IMG/VR virus record: IMGVR_UViG_3300021963_000523
Span: 1 to 28,079 of that record
Source: a virus
Direction: 5' to 3' (one strand)
Length of the DNA: 28,079 nucleotides
This document shows positions 1 to 17,804 of the stretch, one piece after another; position 1 is the first letter of the stretch; every line of letters begins with the position of its first letter. A program made the translations under genes and the position numbers. The notes under the pieces are model-generated. The model saw only the letters and a program-made list of their open reading frames with translations, searched no databases and was not told the DNA's origin.

Positions 1-89
1 TTCCAACTTAAAGCCTCTGCTTCAAGACGGCGGATTCTAGCCCTTTCTTCTCTTTCGTCTGGTGATAAGTTTTCTCCAGTAGTTGCCAT
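1..89 (-). CDS. 5' end of a gene of unknown function, running off the left edge
   Basis: An ATG at 89-87 opens a frame that stays open to the window edge, giving 29 complete codons. The peptide begins MATTGENLSPDERE and continues as a strongly charged helix rich in Arg and Glu. A TATTTATA element lies 24 nt upstream, as for other minus-strand genes here. The product cannot be named from 29 residues. In phage tail clusters the gene after the frameshifted tail-assembly-chaperone pair is often the tape-measure or a baseplate gene, but that is only an inference from position. Confidence 0.65.
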   Translation of the reverse strand, partial: MATTGENLSPDEREERARIRRLEAEALSW

Positions 90-122: not shown

Positions 123-398
123 CTATCTCTTAGATTTTACTGTGGATTTGTAGGTAGGCTTGGAATCGGTATTGGTTTTGATACCAGGTTTGGTAGTCAA
201 AGGCTTCTCCGCAGTAACCATTTGGTTTTCTTGTTGGATTTCTTGGATTTTCTGTAAGTGTTCGTTAATAAACTTAATGTTTAACCTCCTTTCATTAACA
301 GGCATATCCATTACCTCAGACCACGAGAAGCCACCACCACCATGATAGGTTAGCTCAAATACTTCTCGTTTGAATACAGATCTATACTCAACTCCCGG
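123..398 (-). CDS. gp51-like frame, probably translated as a frameshift extension of the gp26-like protein
   Basis: This frame is open from 416 down to the TAG at 123-125. From 416 to 312 it has no ATG, GTG or TTG; the first start codon is ATG at 311, which would give only 62 aa. The startless part nevertheless encodes a protein-like segment, FELTYHGGGGFSWSEV, leading into MDMPVNERR. This layout (Gly-rich turn, aromatic, 'EV..MPV..R', then a charged helix of about 20 residues and a basic tail) resembles small gp51-type or tail-assembly-chaperone proteins of T4-like phages. A +1 shift at 400-397 would join residue 248 of the gp26-like protein to 91 residues here, giving a 339-aa fusion. Independent initiation at 311 would discard the conserved-looking motif, so the fusion is preferred. 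The family assignment is from recall, not a search. Confidence 0.6.
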   Translation of the reverse strand, partial: PGVEYRSVFKREVFELTYHGGGGFSWSEVMDMPVNERRLNIKFINEHLQKIQEIQQENQMVTAEKPLTTKPGIKTNTDSKPTYKSTVKSKR

Positions 399-1143
399 GA
401 AAAAAAAACTCTGTTGTTAGAGGTAAACTTTCTGTAACTTCTCTACCACTTGATAGAGTAAAATTGACTGATAAGTCAATGTCAGGAGTAATATCTCCTA
501 TATAGGATCGTAAATAACTTGAATCTCTTGCAAGTAAATAGTTGTCTACGAAGTCACGTACTGTTTTCTGGTCGTAATTACCGTTTATAGACGTTATTTG
601 GTGTTTTAATCTTGTAGTAAGCTCACCCGCTTGTAAGTTAGTTGCCTTCTTAAATCCCTTTATTTCTTGGTCTATTTTCTTTTCATCCCCAACTGTAAGT
701 AACTTGAATGTAACTACATTCTTTGAGGCTGGTAATTCAAGGGAAAACTCGTTTTTATGGTTAAATAGGTTAAGATCAACATCTTTATTACCTAATGCTT
801 GCAAGTCAATAGTAACCTGTTCTTTAGTATCTGACTCTACATCGCTGTATTCAAAAGAATACTGTGATCCATAAGCTAAAATACGTGCTGCAATAAGCAA
901 ACCATTTCTATCTCCTAACAACAAATCATCGTAATTGATTGGAGATTTAATCAAAGATTGTAACATCTTCTCAATAGCAATACCTTGTTTTAACAAGTTT
1001 ATGTTTGTTAAGATGTCCTCTTCTCTTGCAGTCATGTACTTCATTTCAATAGTACCAGAAGATAGTGGATTTTCAAGAGAATAAACCTTTCCTAAAGAGG
1101 GAAGCTCTACAGTTTCTGTAGGTAACGTGAACTTTTCTGACAT
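388..1143 (-). CDS. T4 gp26-like baseplate / tail-assembly protein
   Basis: This 251-aa protein resembles the T4 baseplate gp26 family (Pfam T4_baseplate). The N-terminus carries the family signature in order: LPSLGKVYS, NPLSSGTIEMKYMTAREED, then ILTNINLLKQG and a helix leading to SLI. GDRNGLLIAARILAYG follows at about residues 77-92. T4 gp26 is about 208 aa, so this is slightly longer. In T4 it is needed for assembly of the baseplate hub; in distant relatives the pair gp26/gp51 holds the place of tail-assembly chaperones (inference). The ATG at 1143 is preceded by an A/T-rich leader and a TATTTATT element. The 3' end contains a T9 run that may redirect ribosomes into the gp51-like frame. Confidence 0.8.
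   Translation of the reverse strand: MSEKFTLPTETVELPSLGKVYSLENPLSSGTIEMKYMTAREEDILTNINLLKQGIAIEKMLQSLIKSPINYDDLLLGDRNGLLIAARILAYGSQYSFEYSDVESDTKEQVTIDLQALGNKDVDLNLFNHKNEFSLELPASKNVVTFKLLTVGDEKKIDQEIKGFKKATNLQAGELTTRLKHQITSINGNYDQKTVRDFVDNYLLARDSSYLRSYIGDITPDIDLSVNFTLSSGREVTESLPLTTEFFFPGS
397..408 (-). other. Putative programmed ribosomal frameshift site (T9-CCC)
   Basis: The coding strand of the gp26-like gene reads GAG TTT TTT TTT CCC GGG AGT TGA. A +1 slip of the Phe-tRNA from TTT to TTC, before CCC is decoded, gives FPGVEY in place of FPGS-stop. A -2 slip on the T9 run reaches the same frame. The run lies four codons before the zero-frame stop, where recoding sites of phage tail-assembly genes are usually found. 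I saw no convincing downstream stem-loop. Confidence 0.5.
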
Positions 1144-1256: not shown

Positions 1257-1547
1257 ATGAACCTTTCAACTTTTTTACTTAGTTTAGTAGTTATAACAGC
1301 TATCTTACTCATTATCAGGCTATTTTGGCCTATATTGATAGTGGTTTTCTACCTTTTAAATATACTTTGGTGGTCATTTGTAGCAGCTGTAATATGGGCT
1401 GCTTTTGTGGTTCAAACCTCTGAAGGTTGGGTTTATACCTGGATGTTGGTGTTTTTAACGTTTTGTGGTGTATTCGTAGTGGCTTATTTAATCGCAATAG
1501 AGGCTTTTGGTAGGTTCTTAACTGTACTTAAAGGGTTTATTAAATAA
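1257..1547 (+). CDS. Small multi-pass membrane protein, unknown function
   Basis: This 96-aa ORF is the only credible plus-strand gene, and no minus-strand ORF competes in the interval. It is very hydrophobic. The first membrane segment(s) lie near residues 5-35 (LLSLVVITAILLI, an R-L-F-W turn, then ILIVVFYLL). Others lie near 38-52 (WWSFVAAVIWAAFVV) and 60-85 (TWMLVFLTFCGVFVVAYLIAI). The C-terminus is short and basic. It faces away from the gp26-like gene and converges on the HNH gene, with five bases between the stops. A host-type promoter candidate lies directly upstream. Small phage membrane proteins in such positions can be holins, superinfection-exclusion proteins or early host-takeover factors; nothing here decides between these. 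Confidence 0.6.
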   Translation: MNLSTFLLSLVVITAILLIIRLFWPILIVVFYLLNILWWSFVAAVIWAAFVVQTSEGWVYTWMLVFLTFCGVFVVAYLIAIEAFGRFLTVLKGFIK

Positions 1548-2254: not shown

Positions 2255-2740
2255 TCAATAATTTAATATACAGTAATCCATTCCAATTTGTAATTCAATT
2301 GTAATTGCGTCTTGGTTAGACCAGTCATAAGCTCCAAAGTTTGCTGTCTTAACGAAAGCACCTTTGATAATCCACTCACTCACTACATCACCCACTGGAC
2401 CTAAGATAGATAAGTTTAAATCTTTCTTATAGAAATCTGAATATCCATCACGTCCTGTTACAGACTCGTGTGATAAACGGATCCACTCCATACACGCTTG
2501 TTGACCAGAAGGAGAGATTGGGTTGTAAAGGTTTAATGTCATGTCTTGCCATTCTGCCTTTCCTTTGATTTTACGATAAACGTTGATATGGTCAATCTTA
2601 ACCTCATTTAAGTTTACGTTAGGAGCAGTTGCACTTTTGATCATGAAGGATGGAATACCATCAACATACATTATAAATCGGTTCTGAACCGTAGGTTCAA
2701 AACTAGTGAACATTATTTCATTTGGGTCTAATACTGGCAT
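2255..2740 (-). CDS. Tail tube protein (T4 gp19-like)
   Basis: This 161-aa protein has the length and pattern of the T4 gp19 tail-tube family (Phage_T4_gp19). It shows the N-terminal PxxP-like VLDPNEIMFTSFEPTVQNRF, MYVDGIPSFMIKSATAP, a central VYRKIKGKAEWQDMTLNLYNP and a C-terminal GDVVSEWIIKGAFVKTANFG with alternating beta strands ending ITIELQIGMDYCIL. It polymerises as stacked hexameric rings inside the contractile sheath. The ATG at 2740 lies 16 nt after a TATTTATA element. Sheath and tube are separated here by one 172-aa gene, whereas in T4 gene 19 directly follows 18. Confidence 0.9.
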   Translation of the reverse strand: MPVLDPNEIMFTSFEPTVQNRFIMYVDGIPSFMIKSATAPNVNLNEVKIDHINVYRKIKGKAEWQDMTLNLYNPISPSGQQACMEWIRLSHESVTGRDGYSDFYKKDLNLSILGPVGDVVSEWIIKGAFVKTANFGAYDWSNQDAITIELQIGMDYCILNY

Positions 2741-11734: not shown

Positions 11735-12451
11735 TTAAATTCCAAATCGAGTTCTAGTAGCATTAAAATTCTGCAATACTTCTGTTGCCGATAATGCTCT
11801 AGTATAAAAAATCATACTTCCATATTTCCCATTGAAGTTTCGACCACCACCTCCCCATCCTCCTAGCCTAAAAGATTCTATACCAGTATACACTGGATTT
11901 CCACATACAGCACCTGTAGAAAATAATGTTCCGTTTATATAGCCTTTTGTTTGGTTTTGAAAAGTAAAAGTTAAAAAGTACCATGTGTTTGCTGTTAGTG
12001 TAAAAACACTAGTGCTGCTACCAGCACTTCCGTCACCAACACCAAATCCGAATTGATTGGTATTGGTATAGTCTTGTTGACATACGTAACTTGTACCTCC
12101 TCGGTGATTATTATCGAGTATGTCGGCGTATACCCCTTGTGTAGAGCCTGCGTTTACCCACACACAAATTGAAAAAGTATTAATTGAAAATGAAGATCCA
12201 AACTCGATAGTATCATCACTACCATCTAAAACTATTGCACCTCCACTTCCAGTAACAAAAGTTGGACCATTGGTTAAAGTACCATTTTTACTATTATTAC
12301 TTATATCGGTCCAAGTAGTTCCACTACCACTGTAGGAAGCTATTATACCAGCATCGACATATGTCAAAAGACTATCTCTAACAATATTTAAATTGTTATA
12401 ATAATTTATGTGGTTATACGTTATATTATTTCCTCCTACGTTAAATGCCAT
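11735..12451 (-). CDS. LamG / concanavalin A-like lectin-fold protein 3 (238 aa)
   Basis: Laminin_G_3-type protein. Visible signature order: YVDAGIIASYSGSGTTWTDI at about 32-51, NGTLTNGPTFVTGSGGAI and LDGSDDTIEF, then SICVWV, TWYFLTFTFQN, GYINGTLF, and the family ending FYTRALSATEVLQNFNATRTRFGI. Such jellyroll domains bind carbohydrate or act as adhesin tips on phage fibres. Its ATG follows the stop of the second copy by one base (TAATATG). It is the last of three tandem paralogues, about 240 residues each, which differ mainly in the loops between the conserved strands. Confidence 0.8.
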   Translation of the reverse strand: MAFNVGGNNITYNHINYYNNLNIVRDSLLTYVDAGIIASYSGSGTTWTDISNNSKNGTLTNGPTFVTGSGGAIVLDGSDDTIEFGSSFSINTFSICVWVNAGSTQGVYADILDNNHRGGTSYVCQQDYTNTNQFGFGVGDGSAGSSTSVFTLTANTWYFLTFTFQNQTKGYINGTLFSTGAVCGNPVYTGIESFRLGGWGGGGRNFNGKYGSMIFYTRALSATEVLQNFNATRTRFGI

Positions 12452-12452
12452 A

Positions 12453-13202
12453 TTATAATCCGTATTTTTGTCTTTGTGCTTGATAATTTTGTAAAATCTC
12501 AGTAGCTGTTAAAGCTCTATTATATATTTGAACTGCTCCTATTCTACCATTAAAAAAGTAAGCACCTGTATTGTTGTTTGGTACTCCTAGTGTAAGGTTA
12601 GTATAACTATCCGGATTACTGCCTGCCACTAAACTTCCTTGTTCTAAATAAATTCCGTTTTTATATGCTTTTAATGTCGATCCATCAGAAACAAACATCC
12701 AATAAATCCATGTACTAGTAGGAAAGTTAGTACTAGGACTGCTTATGTAAAATAATCCCTCAACTGATCCTTTAATAGCATAAAATGGAGTGCCACTTTG
12801 ATACGAAAATGCTATTCCCATATCACTAGTTTGAGCTCCTGTTGACATTATATATAAACCTCCGATAGCATAGCACCAACATCCAAAAGAAATTATATTG
12901 CTGTTTAAAGCGGGATTGCTTATAAAATTTCCTGCAAAAGAACCACAATCAACATAGTCATTAGTTCCATCAAATGCTATATAACCCCCATTTGAAGTTG
13001 AAAAGGATGGACCATTGGTCAACACTCCTGAATTACTTGGATAGTTTCCTGTAAACTCAGACCATGTTGTTCCTGATCCTGGATACGAGCTTACTAAACC
13101 TGCGTCCAGGTAATATTGTAATCCATCAAACACAGGGTAGGTGTTGACAAGCTGACTTGCTCTTGTGTTAACTACTTGATTTCCTCCTATATCTAATGGC
13201 AT
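12453..13202 (-). CDS. LamG / concanavalin A-like lectin-fold protein 2 (249 aa)
   Basis: Second of three tandem paralogues. It has GLQYYLDAGLVSSYPGSGTTW, GVLTNGPSFSTSNGGYI, FDGTNDYVDCGS, a strand SFGCWCYA, WIYWMFVSDGSTLKAYKNGIY and the terminal YNRALTATEILQNYQAQ. It is about ten residues longer than its neighbours through larger central loops, and its middle section (SSPSTNFPTSTWI) is the most divergent of the three. It carries Cys in SFGCWC and VDCGS that the other two lack. The gap to the first copy is 12 nt without a promoter motif, so one message is likely. Confidence 0.8.
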   Translation of the reverse strand: MPLDIGGNQVVNTRASQLVNTYPVFDGLQYYLDAGLVSSYPGSGTTWSEFTGNYPSNSGVLTNGPSFSTSNGGYIAFDGTNDYVDCGSFAGNFISNPALNSNIISFGCWCYAIGGLYIMSTGAQTSDMGIAFSYQSGTPFYAIKGSVEGLFYISSPSTNFPTSTWIYWMFVSDGSTLKAYKNGIYLEQGSLVAGSNPDSYTNLTLGVPNNNTGAYFFNGRIGAVQIYNRALTATEILQNYQAQRQKYGL

Positions 13203-13214
13203 ATTTTTAAATTT

Positions 13215-13934
13215 TTAAATTCCATACCTCTGTCTTTGAGCATCGAAATTTTGATAAATTTCATCACCGGATAATACACGATTATATGCATAAAAAGCTC
13301 CATATCTCCCATTCCAATATCTTGAAACAGTTCCAACTCCCCACCAAGCACCTAATCGTAAAAATGGACTTTGAAAATTAGATGCAGCAGATGCTCCAGT
13401 TCCAAATATAGTACCATTAATGTAACCTCTCACCTTATCATTATCCCAAGTAAAAGTTAAAAAAGTCCAAGTGTTAGATACTAAGGTAAAAAGACCAGAA
13501 GAGCTAGCGCTTGATGCCCCAATCATAGCGAATTCATATTGGTTTGTATTTGCAGCATTCTGCTGAATATTAAAGTTTTGATTACCAGTGTGTGAGGCAT
13601 CTAAAATATCAGCGTACGTATTTTGAGTTGATCCTGGGTATACCCATAAGCAGATTGTAAAATAATTATACTGGAAATTTGCTGTATTAATGTAGTCGTT
13701 TGATCCATCCAATATAATTGCCCCTCCATTAGATGTAGTAAATGTTGGTCCGTTGATTAACGTACCGTTAAACCCACTTACTCCTAAATCAGTCCACGTA
13801 GTTCCAGATCCAGGATAAGAGTTGGCAATTCCAGCATCCAAATAGATAATACTTCCACTAGTAACAATTCCTTTTTGATTTGCGAATTGTGTCCCTAGAG
13901 AGTTTAATTGGTTATTGGATAAATTAATTGGCAT
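13215..13934 (-). CDS. LamG / concanavalin A-like lectin-fold protein 1 (239 aa)
   Basis: First of three tandem paralogues. Signatures are IIYLDAGIANSYPGSGTTWTDL, NGTLINGPTFTTSNGGAI, LDGSNDYINTAN, TICLWVYPGS, FLTFTWDNDKVRGYINGTIFG, LRLGAWWG, YWNGRYGAFYAYNRVLSGDE and the C-terminal QRQRYGI. It is closest to copy 3, with which it shares STQ(N/G)xYADILD in the central strands. Three bases separate its start from the 83-aa gene that follows fibre B, so fibre B, the 83-aa protein and the LamG genes probably form one transcription unit. Confidence 0.8.
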   Translation of the reverse strand: MPINLSNNQLNSLGTQFANQKGIVTSGSIIYLDAGIANSYPGSGTTWTDLGVSGFNGTLINGPTFTTSNGGAIILDGSNDYINTANFQYNYFTICLWVYPGSTQNTYADILDASHTGNQNFNIQQNAANTNQYEFAMIGASSASSSGLFTLVSNTWTFLTFTWDNDKVRGYINGTIFGTGASAASNFQSPFLRLGAWWGVGTVSRYWNGRYGAFYAYNRVLSGDEIYQNFDAQRQRYGI

Positions 13935-17103: not shown

Positions 17104-17277
17104 TTACACAGCAGATACCTTAAATCTTCGGTTTGGATCTTCGGCTGCTAATTCGTCACATTTTGCTTGCGCTTCTGCTTCGGTTGGATATTCGTAGATT
17201 GGATCATCAGGTCCAAATTGACTCACCCAAATCTCGGCATTCACAAATGCTTGTTTTAATACGTAGTATTTTGTCAT
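17104..17277 (-). CDS. 57-aa protein coupled to the GIY-YIG gene
   Basis: An ATG at 17277-17275 overlaps the TGA of the GIY-YIG gene by four bases (ATGA) and opens a 57-codon frame ending TAA at 17104. The protein begins MTKYYVLKQAFVNAEIWVSQ, continues FGPDDPIYEYPTEAEAQAKC and ends RRFKVSAV. This looks like one small alpha/beta unit: strand, strand, a PTEAEAQAKCDELAAED helix, strand. It resembles short ORFs scattered through large phage genomes. No function is known. Coupling to a homing endonuclease suggests either that it was there first and the enzyme gene was inserted in front, or that they travel together. Confidence 0.65.
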   Translation of the reverse strand: MTKYYVLKQAFVNAEIWVSQFGPDDPIYEYPTEAEAQAKCDELAAEDPNRRFKVSAV

Positions 17278-17804
17278 GTTGTTTGTTTTTTTCTACAATT
17301 ATCGAAATGTCTGTTTTTCATAGGTCCAGGAGCTCCAATTTTGTGGCAGTGTGGACACTCTATTTTTACTCTTTTTTTAGCTGCGTCGCTTAACTTCTTT
17401 CTATATTCATCAGTGTAAGTTTGCACGGGATTCCATAAGCCTTTTAAATACCTTTCTTTTTGCCATGTGTTAAGACCTTTATGAGAATTACTCATTTTCT
17501 CTTTAGTCTCTTGAGATGGCTTAGATCCACACCTACCATCTCCACCATCTGTTAAATTTACTAAAGTACCTGTTTCATCAGCTTTTTTTCCATAAAAGCT
17601 AATTAAGTACTTTTCAATTGTACAAGCTTCCTCCCATATTAAATCCCTATGTGTTATTTCAACGGTATAATCTGTTTTATTTACTATGTTATGCCATAAC
17701 TTAGTTCTTTTTGCTTTTGAGTAAGCTCTTTTTTTGTTAGAGCCTATTCCCACATAAAAAACCTCGTTTGTATCCAACCTTATATGCTTATATACAATAG
17801 CCAT
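17274..17804 (-). CDS. GIY-YIG homing endonuclease with NUMOD3 and C-terminal zinc finger
   Basis: This 176-aa protein carries a variant GIY-YIG core: VYKHIRLDTNEVFYVGIGSNKKRAY at residues 4-28, in which VYKHI and YVGIG replace GIY and YIG, with the conserved Arg just after. The catalytic Glu is probably in WEEACTIEKYLISFYG (about 57-72), followed by VNLTDGGDG. A NUMOD3 element (SQETKEKMSNSHKG) lies near 96-109. A C-terminal CPHC..PMKNRHFDNC module resembles a zinc finger seen in T4-type homing enzymes. It lies among fibre genes, next to a fibre-like remnant, with its own TATTTATA element 13 nt upstream, and its stop overlaps the next ATG. Confidence 0.88.
   Translation of the reverse strand: MAIVYKHIRLDTNEVFYVGIGSNKKRAYSKAKRTKLWHNIVNKTDYTVEITHRDLIWEEACTIEKYLISFYGKKADETGTLVNLTDGGDGRCGSKPSQETKEKMSNSHKGLNTWQKERYLKGLWNPVQTYTDEYRKKLSDAAKKRVKIECPHCHKIGAPGPMKNRHFDNCRKKQTT

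Follow-up and report, generated by a model that had tools for sequence, protein, structure and literature searches.

A probable programmed +1 ribosomal frameshift in the gp26-family gene of myoviruses

The window, by which we mean the whole stretch of 28,079 nt that was analysed (IMGVR_UViG_3300021963_000523 of IMG/VR, positions 1-28,079), carries near its first position a minus-strand gene whose end overlaps a coding stretch in another frame. The features at this locus, together with the tube gene upstream of it, are the following.

1-89, minus strand: next gene, beginning MATTGENLSPDERREERARIRRLEAEALSW and leaving the window; tape-measure-like by position.
123-398, minus strand: +1-frame C-terminal (T-like) domain of 91 aa, beginning PGVEYRSVFKREVFELTYHGGGGFSWSEVMDMPVNERR; conserved in relatives.
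123-1143, minus strand: putative N+C fusion product of 339 aa, with CCCG read in one step.
309-311, minus strand: ATG, the first start codon of the +1 frame, at residue 30 of the C domain.
388-1143, minus strand: gp26-family gene of 251 codons, the putative G-like N part of the chaperone, with its TGA stop at 390-388.
397-408, minus strand: candidate shift site TTT TTT TTT CCC, with slip codon and Pro codon conserved in relatives.
2255-2740, minus strand: tail tube gene, gp19-like (PF06841, E=5e-4, under its cut-off).

Sheath and tube genes lie upstream of the gp26-family gene in the window. The gene that leaves the window at 1-89 has a counterpart annotated as tail tape measure protein in Flavobacterium phage immuto, and a close relative (L001) carries at this place an ORF of 757 aa with a similar beginning. 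The order sheath, tube, N/C, tape measure is also that of immuto, Bacillus phage SP-15 and Listeria phage LIS04, where the gp26-family gene is flanked by a tube (or tail completion) gene and an annotated tape measure or putative tail gene. The interval between tube and tape measure is the slot of the tail-assembly chaperones (G/GT), and the window's gene occupies it. Gene order in the relatives thus agrees with the parallel to lambda G/GT that the initial annotation had drawn.

Other genes of the window deserve mention. Two minus-strand ORFs (1553-2197 and 17274-17804) are homing-endonuclease-like, both with a NUMOD3 motif. The first sits between the tube and gp26 genes and has the sole clear Shine-Dalgarno leader (AAAGGAG) among 22 genes inspected. 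Between this endonuclease and the gp26 gene lies a hydrophobic 96-aa ORF on the opposite strand (1257-1547, plus strand) without a family match. Five long tail-fibre-like paralogues with SSS/TAS repeats and a recurring Cys motif, CFxxQVCAP, extend over 6125-26169 (minus strand), and three adjoining 240-aa paralogues are found at 11735-13934.

By profile matching, the N part is a member of the T4 gp26 family. The 251-aa protein matches PF12322 (T4_baseplate) with E=1.3e-8 and 35.2 bits against a cut-off of 24.5, and its residues 4-247 match the baseplate hub family PHROG 150 with E=5e-12. Its predicted fold resembles T4-like 'baseplate hub assembly' proteins and the SP-15 'baseplate hub subunit'. 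Lone T4 gp26 or gp51 sequences gave no signal against the profiles, and PDB sequence and fold searches returned nothing meaningful.

At the junction the 0 frame ends with GAG (411-409), TTT TTT TTT (408-400), CCC (399-397), GGG, AGT and TGA (390-388). The stop is the third codon after CCC and not the fourth, a trivial correction to the initial annotation. The +1 frame is open from 416 to a TAG at 125-123 and its earliest ATG, GTG or TTG is the ATG at 311-309, just as had been described. Reading CCCG in one step gives a continuous product of 339 aa.

We have collected about 165 related loci from viral contigs and phage genomes, which reduce to 133 distinct junctions. The layout, a slip codon followed by the C-terminal domain in the +1 frame, is kept in 126 of these, a set that spans phages of Flavobacterium, Microcystis, Bacillus and Listeria. 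The same +1 layout was read separately in Streptococcus phage GXN1 and in the uncultured giant phage LR756508, and it recurs in all seven further loci from bacterial and archaeal metagenome assemblies, several of them Flavobacteriales, that a genome search with the N-part alignment brought up. Conservation of the C domain was seen in 50 aligned relatives, with the consensus LTPEYR..LF.QIHEIVFHG.GGYDW.TVYNMPIWLRRF and, in the window's group, PGVEYR...REVFELTYHGGGGFSWSEVMDMP..ERRLNIKFI. The recurrence of junction, frame relation and C peptide is far beyond chance. The earlier proposal that a shift links both parts into a 339-aa product beside the 251-aa one is thereby strengthened, and its expectation that related phages share the frame relation is borne out.

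Selection on the protein can be read from the region between the slip site and the first common start-like codon. Synonymous changes make up 92%, 84% and 63% of the single-base codon differences there when three junction groups are read in the +1 frame; the 0 frame gives 11-16% and the -1 frame 6-14%. Judged by this substitution pattern, the +1-frame stretch before the first start-like codon evolves as protein, and comparison of the sequences indicates that purifying selection acts on the N and C parts alike.

AlphaFold2 predicts a three-helix C domain with block pLDDT values of 90-96 over residues 1-60. This fold starts directly behind the slip site, and the ATG at residue 30 comes after all of helix 1 (residues 3-19) and most of helix 2 (26-30). 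Naming this domain is less straightforward. The gp26-like half of the gp26/gp51 pair named in the initial annotation stands on PF12322 and PHROG 150, while the gp51-like half is at best tentative: hhalign places the ..NYSL..IM.MLP.ER.. of the gp51 C-terminus at the right place on the C domain, with a probability of only 8%. The second part is therefore best called a tail-assembly-chaperone C-terminal (T-like) domain. With DUF6760 (PF20546) the window's C domain scores 12.6 bits, below the cut-off of 27; among 50 C domains, 14 match this profile at E<=0.1, the best at 1.8e-4, and no match was found in five annotated phage records. Weak Pfam matches of the C domain to CreD, below the cut-off and without context, were judged to be chance.

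Of the 126 junctions, 121 have TTT as slip codon and 5 have CTT; the site of immuto, an isolate, reads TTT CTT_TGG. The slip codon is followed by T in 85 junctions, by C in 40 and by A in a single one. When the junctions were clustered at 65% identity, the slip codon ended in T and a pyrimidine came next in all 36 clusters, where the background for a first-base pyrimidine is 33%; in 35 clusters TTT also precedes the slip codon. Within the window's group the Pro directly after the slip codon is encoded by CCC in 38 of 38 cases, compared with 21 of 320 Pro codons (6.6%) elsewhere in those genes. Phe codons of this group are TTT in 100% at the slip codon and 97% at the codon before it, but in only 58% one codon further upstream. 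The T-run, which the initial annotation had expected to be conserved, varies from 2 to 9 T; it is mostly 7, only 2-3 in six members, and 9 in the window. What is conserved, as far as the aligned junctions tell, is TTT or CTT followed by a pyrimidine, in the window's group TTT CCC, and not the T9 run. Codons TTT, CTT and CCC were reported as the most +1-shift-prone in randomised RF2 (prfB) sites (PMC10885494).

We propose that a programmed +1 ribosomal frameshift yields small amounts of a 339-aa N+C chaperone in addition to the 251-aa N form, and consider this probable. One gene would in this way supply the phage's tail-assembly chaperone pair. The majority of ribosomes would terminate at 388 and release the 251-aa N protein, and a minority would move one base forward at TTT TTT_CCC, the slow, rare CCC codon probably being the moment of the slip. 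Either tRNA-Phe could re-pair from TTT (402-400) to TTC (401-399) or tRNA-Pro from CCC (399-397) to CCG (398-396), and both options would lead to an identical peptide. Shifted ribosomes would then read the +1 frame to 123 and complete the 339-aa protein. If lambda G/GT is a guide, the N part may coat the tape measure protein, the product of the next gene downstream, and the C domain may recruit tail tube subunits.

The same fusion, with one extra Phe, could also arise through a -2 ribosomal slip on TTT TTT of the kind documented for phage Mu (PMC5009743). Both types of re-pairing are possible in most members, and the positions needed for a -2 slip are present in 125 of 126 junctions. Conservation of TTT before the slip codon speaks for it, since the +1 slip does not require this codon and the -2 slip does; LIS04, with TTT_A, is poor for +1 re-pairing and likewise favours -2. 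However, L099, GXN1 and LR756508 lack the upstream T for -2 re-pairing and could only shift by +1, and the conserved pyrimidine after the slip codon and the conserved CCC, which have no role in a -2 slip, favour +1. We therefore regard +1 as the more likely direction, also in the window, and a -2 slip as unlikely. The earlier view that the shift direction is unusual fits the +1 frame in which the window and 125 relatives carry the C domain.

RNA polymerase slippage on the T-run would produce some mRNA that is one T short and is read straight through. The window's T9 would suit such a mechanism, as loss of one T restores the frame. Yet the same frame relation is found with runs of 7, 6, 3 or 2 T, which are generally too short, and slippage is excluded in the six members with 2-3 T; the first Phe codon of the window's group is also freely TTT or TTC. 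Run length varies from 2 to 9 and therefore polymerase slippage is not the general mechanism. It may contribute on the window's T9, but as the explanation of the fusion it is very improbable. Translation of the C domain from its own start, be it the ATG at 311 or a start inside the N gene, is hardly credible. Genes of this phage mostly have no Shine-Dalgarno leaders and therefore a leader cannot be demanded for the C ORF, and a start-bearing separate C ORF does exist in six relatives (L038, L055, L094, L095, L098 and L100). These split loci, scattered on the tree, are the only relatives with a clear start for the second ORF, an arrangement that the initial annotation had set against its own reading. 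In the window and in most relatives, 29-32 codons of the conserved domain, a predicted helix among them, precede the first start, which agrees with the expected lack of a start in relatives; starts further upstream occur in only 48 of 126 junctions and are not conserved. A homopolymer sequencing error or a decayed gene, for which nothing but the position of the break at the T9 run could be said, is a negligible explanation, as isolate genomes and independently assembled contigs show the same break although their local sequence differs and their runs are shorter, and both parts are under purifying selection.

The split loci are of some interest in themselves. In L095 a GIY-YIG-like homing endonuclease ORF sits exactly at the N/C junction, directly after the N stop, and resembles the endonuclease split of the T4 topoisomerase gene 39/60. 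The other five have a short spacer and then a start-bearing C ORF with a repeated FPG.EYR motif.

Candidate stimulators of the +1 shift differ between groups. Consensus folds contained no conserved RNA structure around the site, and single-sequence folding z-scores downstream of it are slightly low (-0.93 vs -0.37). The Shine-Dalgarno core GGAGG stands at a near-fixed distance of about 29 nt 5' of the slip codon in 71 of 88 non-CCC junctions, compared with 9 of 2322 control stretches; carriers include L046, L058, L064 and L081. Such an upstream GGAGG or Shine-Dalgarno stimulator is not conserved in the window's own (CCC) group (4 of 38). A stop codon in the A site (CCC TAA) occurs at L031/L032 only.

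Distant homologues place the gene in a wider evolutionary frame. Their N part was recognised by profile comparison with a probability of 100% and E=7e-50, from alignments that share XacN1 and are not fully independent. Cyanophage S-RIM8, OLIVR5, Atu_ph07, PA5oct, XacN1 and RAS14 have, like the window, a homologous N part and a C domain that is out of frame right after TTTTTT(C/T). They differ in the frame of the C domain, which is -1, with a T TTT TTY heptamer (mostly TTTTTTC or TTTTTTT) at the site. In S-RIM8 and OLIVR5 the second ORF is annotated as 'baseplate hub assembly catalyst'. A canonical -1 heptamer shift of the lambda or cyanophage type was rejected for the window on the grounds of the +1 frame described above. 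The -1-frame homologues fall outside the +1 clade on the tree, except for the poorly placed LR756511 (L171), in which the C domain appears to be in the -1 frame and the N gene ends with neither a T-run nor an obvious heptamer. With a +1 clade among myoviruses of the T4 gp26 family, -1 sister lineages and separate genes in T4, decoding would have changed at least twice in one homologous gene, and the GGAGG that most of the clade has at a fixed place about 29 nt upstream may assist the shift, although Shine-Dalgarno leaders are otherwise apparently unused; we hold this picture to be about as plausible as its opposite.

Frameshifting in tail-chaperone genes is known; new are the probable +1 direction in the gp26 family, the switch of direction and the upstream GGAGG in most relatives, though not in the window. 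No description of a forward-shifted version in the gp26 family was found in the open-access literature. The C domain is missing or truncated in the annotation of immuto, SP-15 and LIS04, and none of the public records checked annotates the frameshift. Should the shift be real, the 'baseplate hub subunit' genes of such phages are incompletely annotated. T4 shares with the window an N part of the gp26 family (PF12322/PHROG 150), but its genes 26 and 51 are separate and divergently oriented. We take these to be the genes meant by Vladimirov et al. in 2022. Going by its title, that paper proposes a mechanism different from frameshifting for the tail assembly chaperones of T4-like phages (PMID 34826709), and a statement in a paper citing it has poly-T -1 signals occurring in T4-like chaperone genes (PMC12846349). 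Tail-chaperone frameshifts have been described as widely conserved 'except T4', with -1, -2 and +1 versions in different phages (PMC5009743). A real shift at our locus would mean that many environmental gp26-family phages use chaperone frameshifting, and in the forward direction, despite T4-like phages being singled out as the exception.

Lambda G/GT and its equivalents in long-tailed phages share with the window the overlapping frames between tube and tape measure, the minor N+C fusion and a second ORF without a start. Lambda shifts by -1 and the window's C domain is in the +1 frame, and the likeness described here is one of layout. Mu (-2) and the Vandenendeviridae (-1 at GTTTTT; PMC12846349) share the contractile tail and the gene slot but differ in direction and slip sequence. 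Forward shifts are known from prfB (CTT T), Listeria PSA (CCC), the haloarchaeal myovirus HSTV-2 and 350 cases in the actinophage training set of PRFect (PMC5009743, PMC10885494). Like the window these involve +1 at CTT, TTT or CCC, some of them in tail chaperones, although in other gene families; prfB and PSA tsh need the A-site stop codon that the window's family lacks apart from the two junctions named above. If the shift proves real, the gp26 family, with its +1 and -1 forms, homing-endonuclease split and separate genes, would offer a natural series for studying how recoding signals are gained, switched and lost at a kept product ratio.
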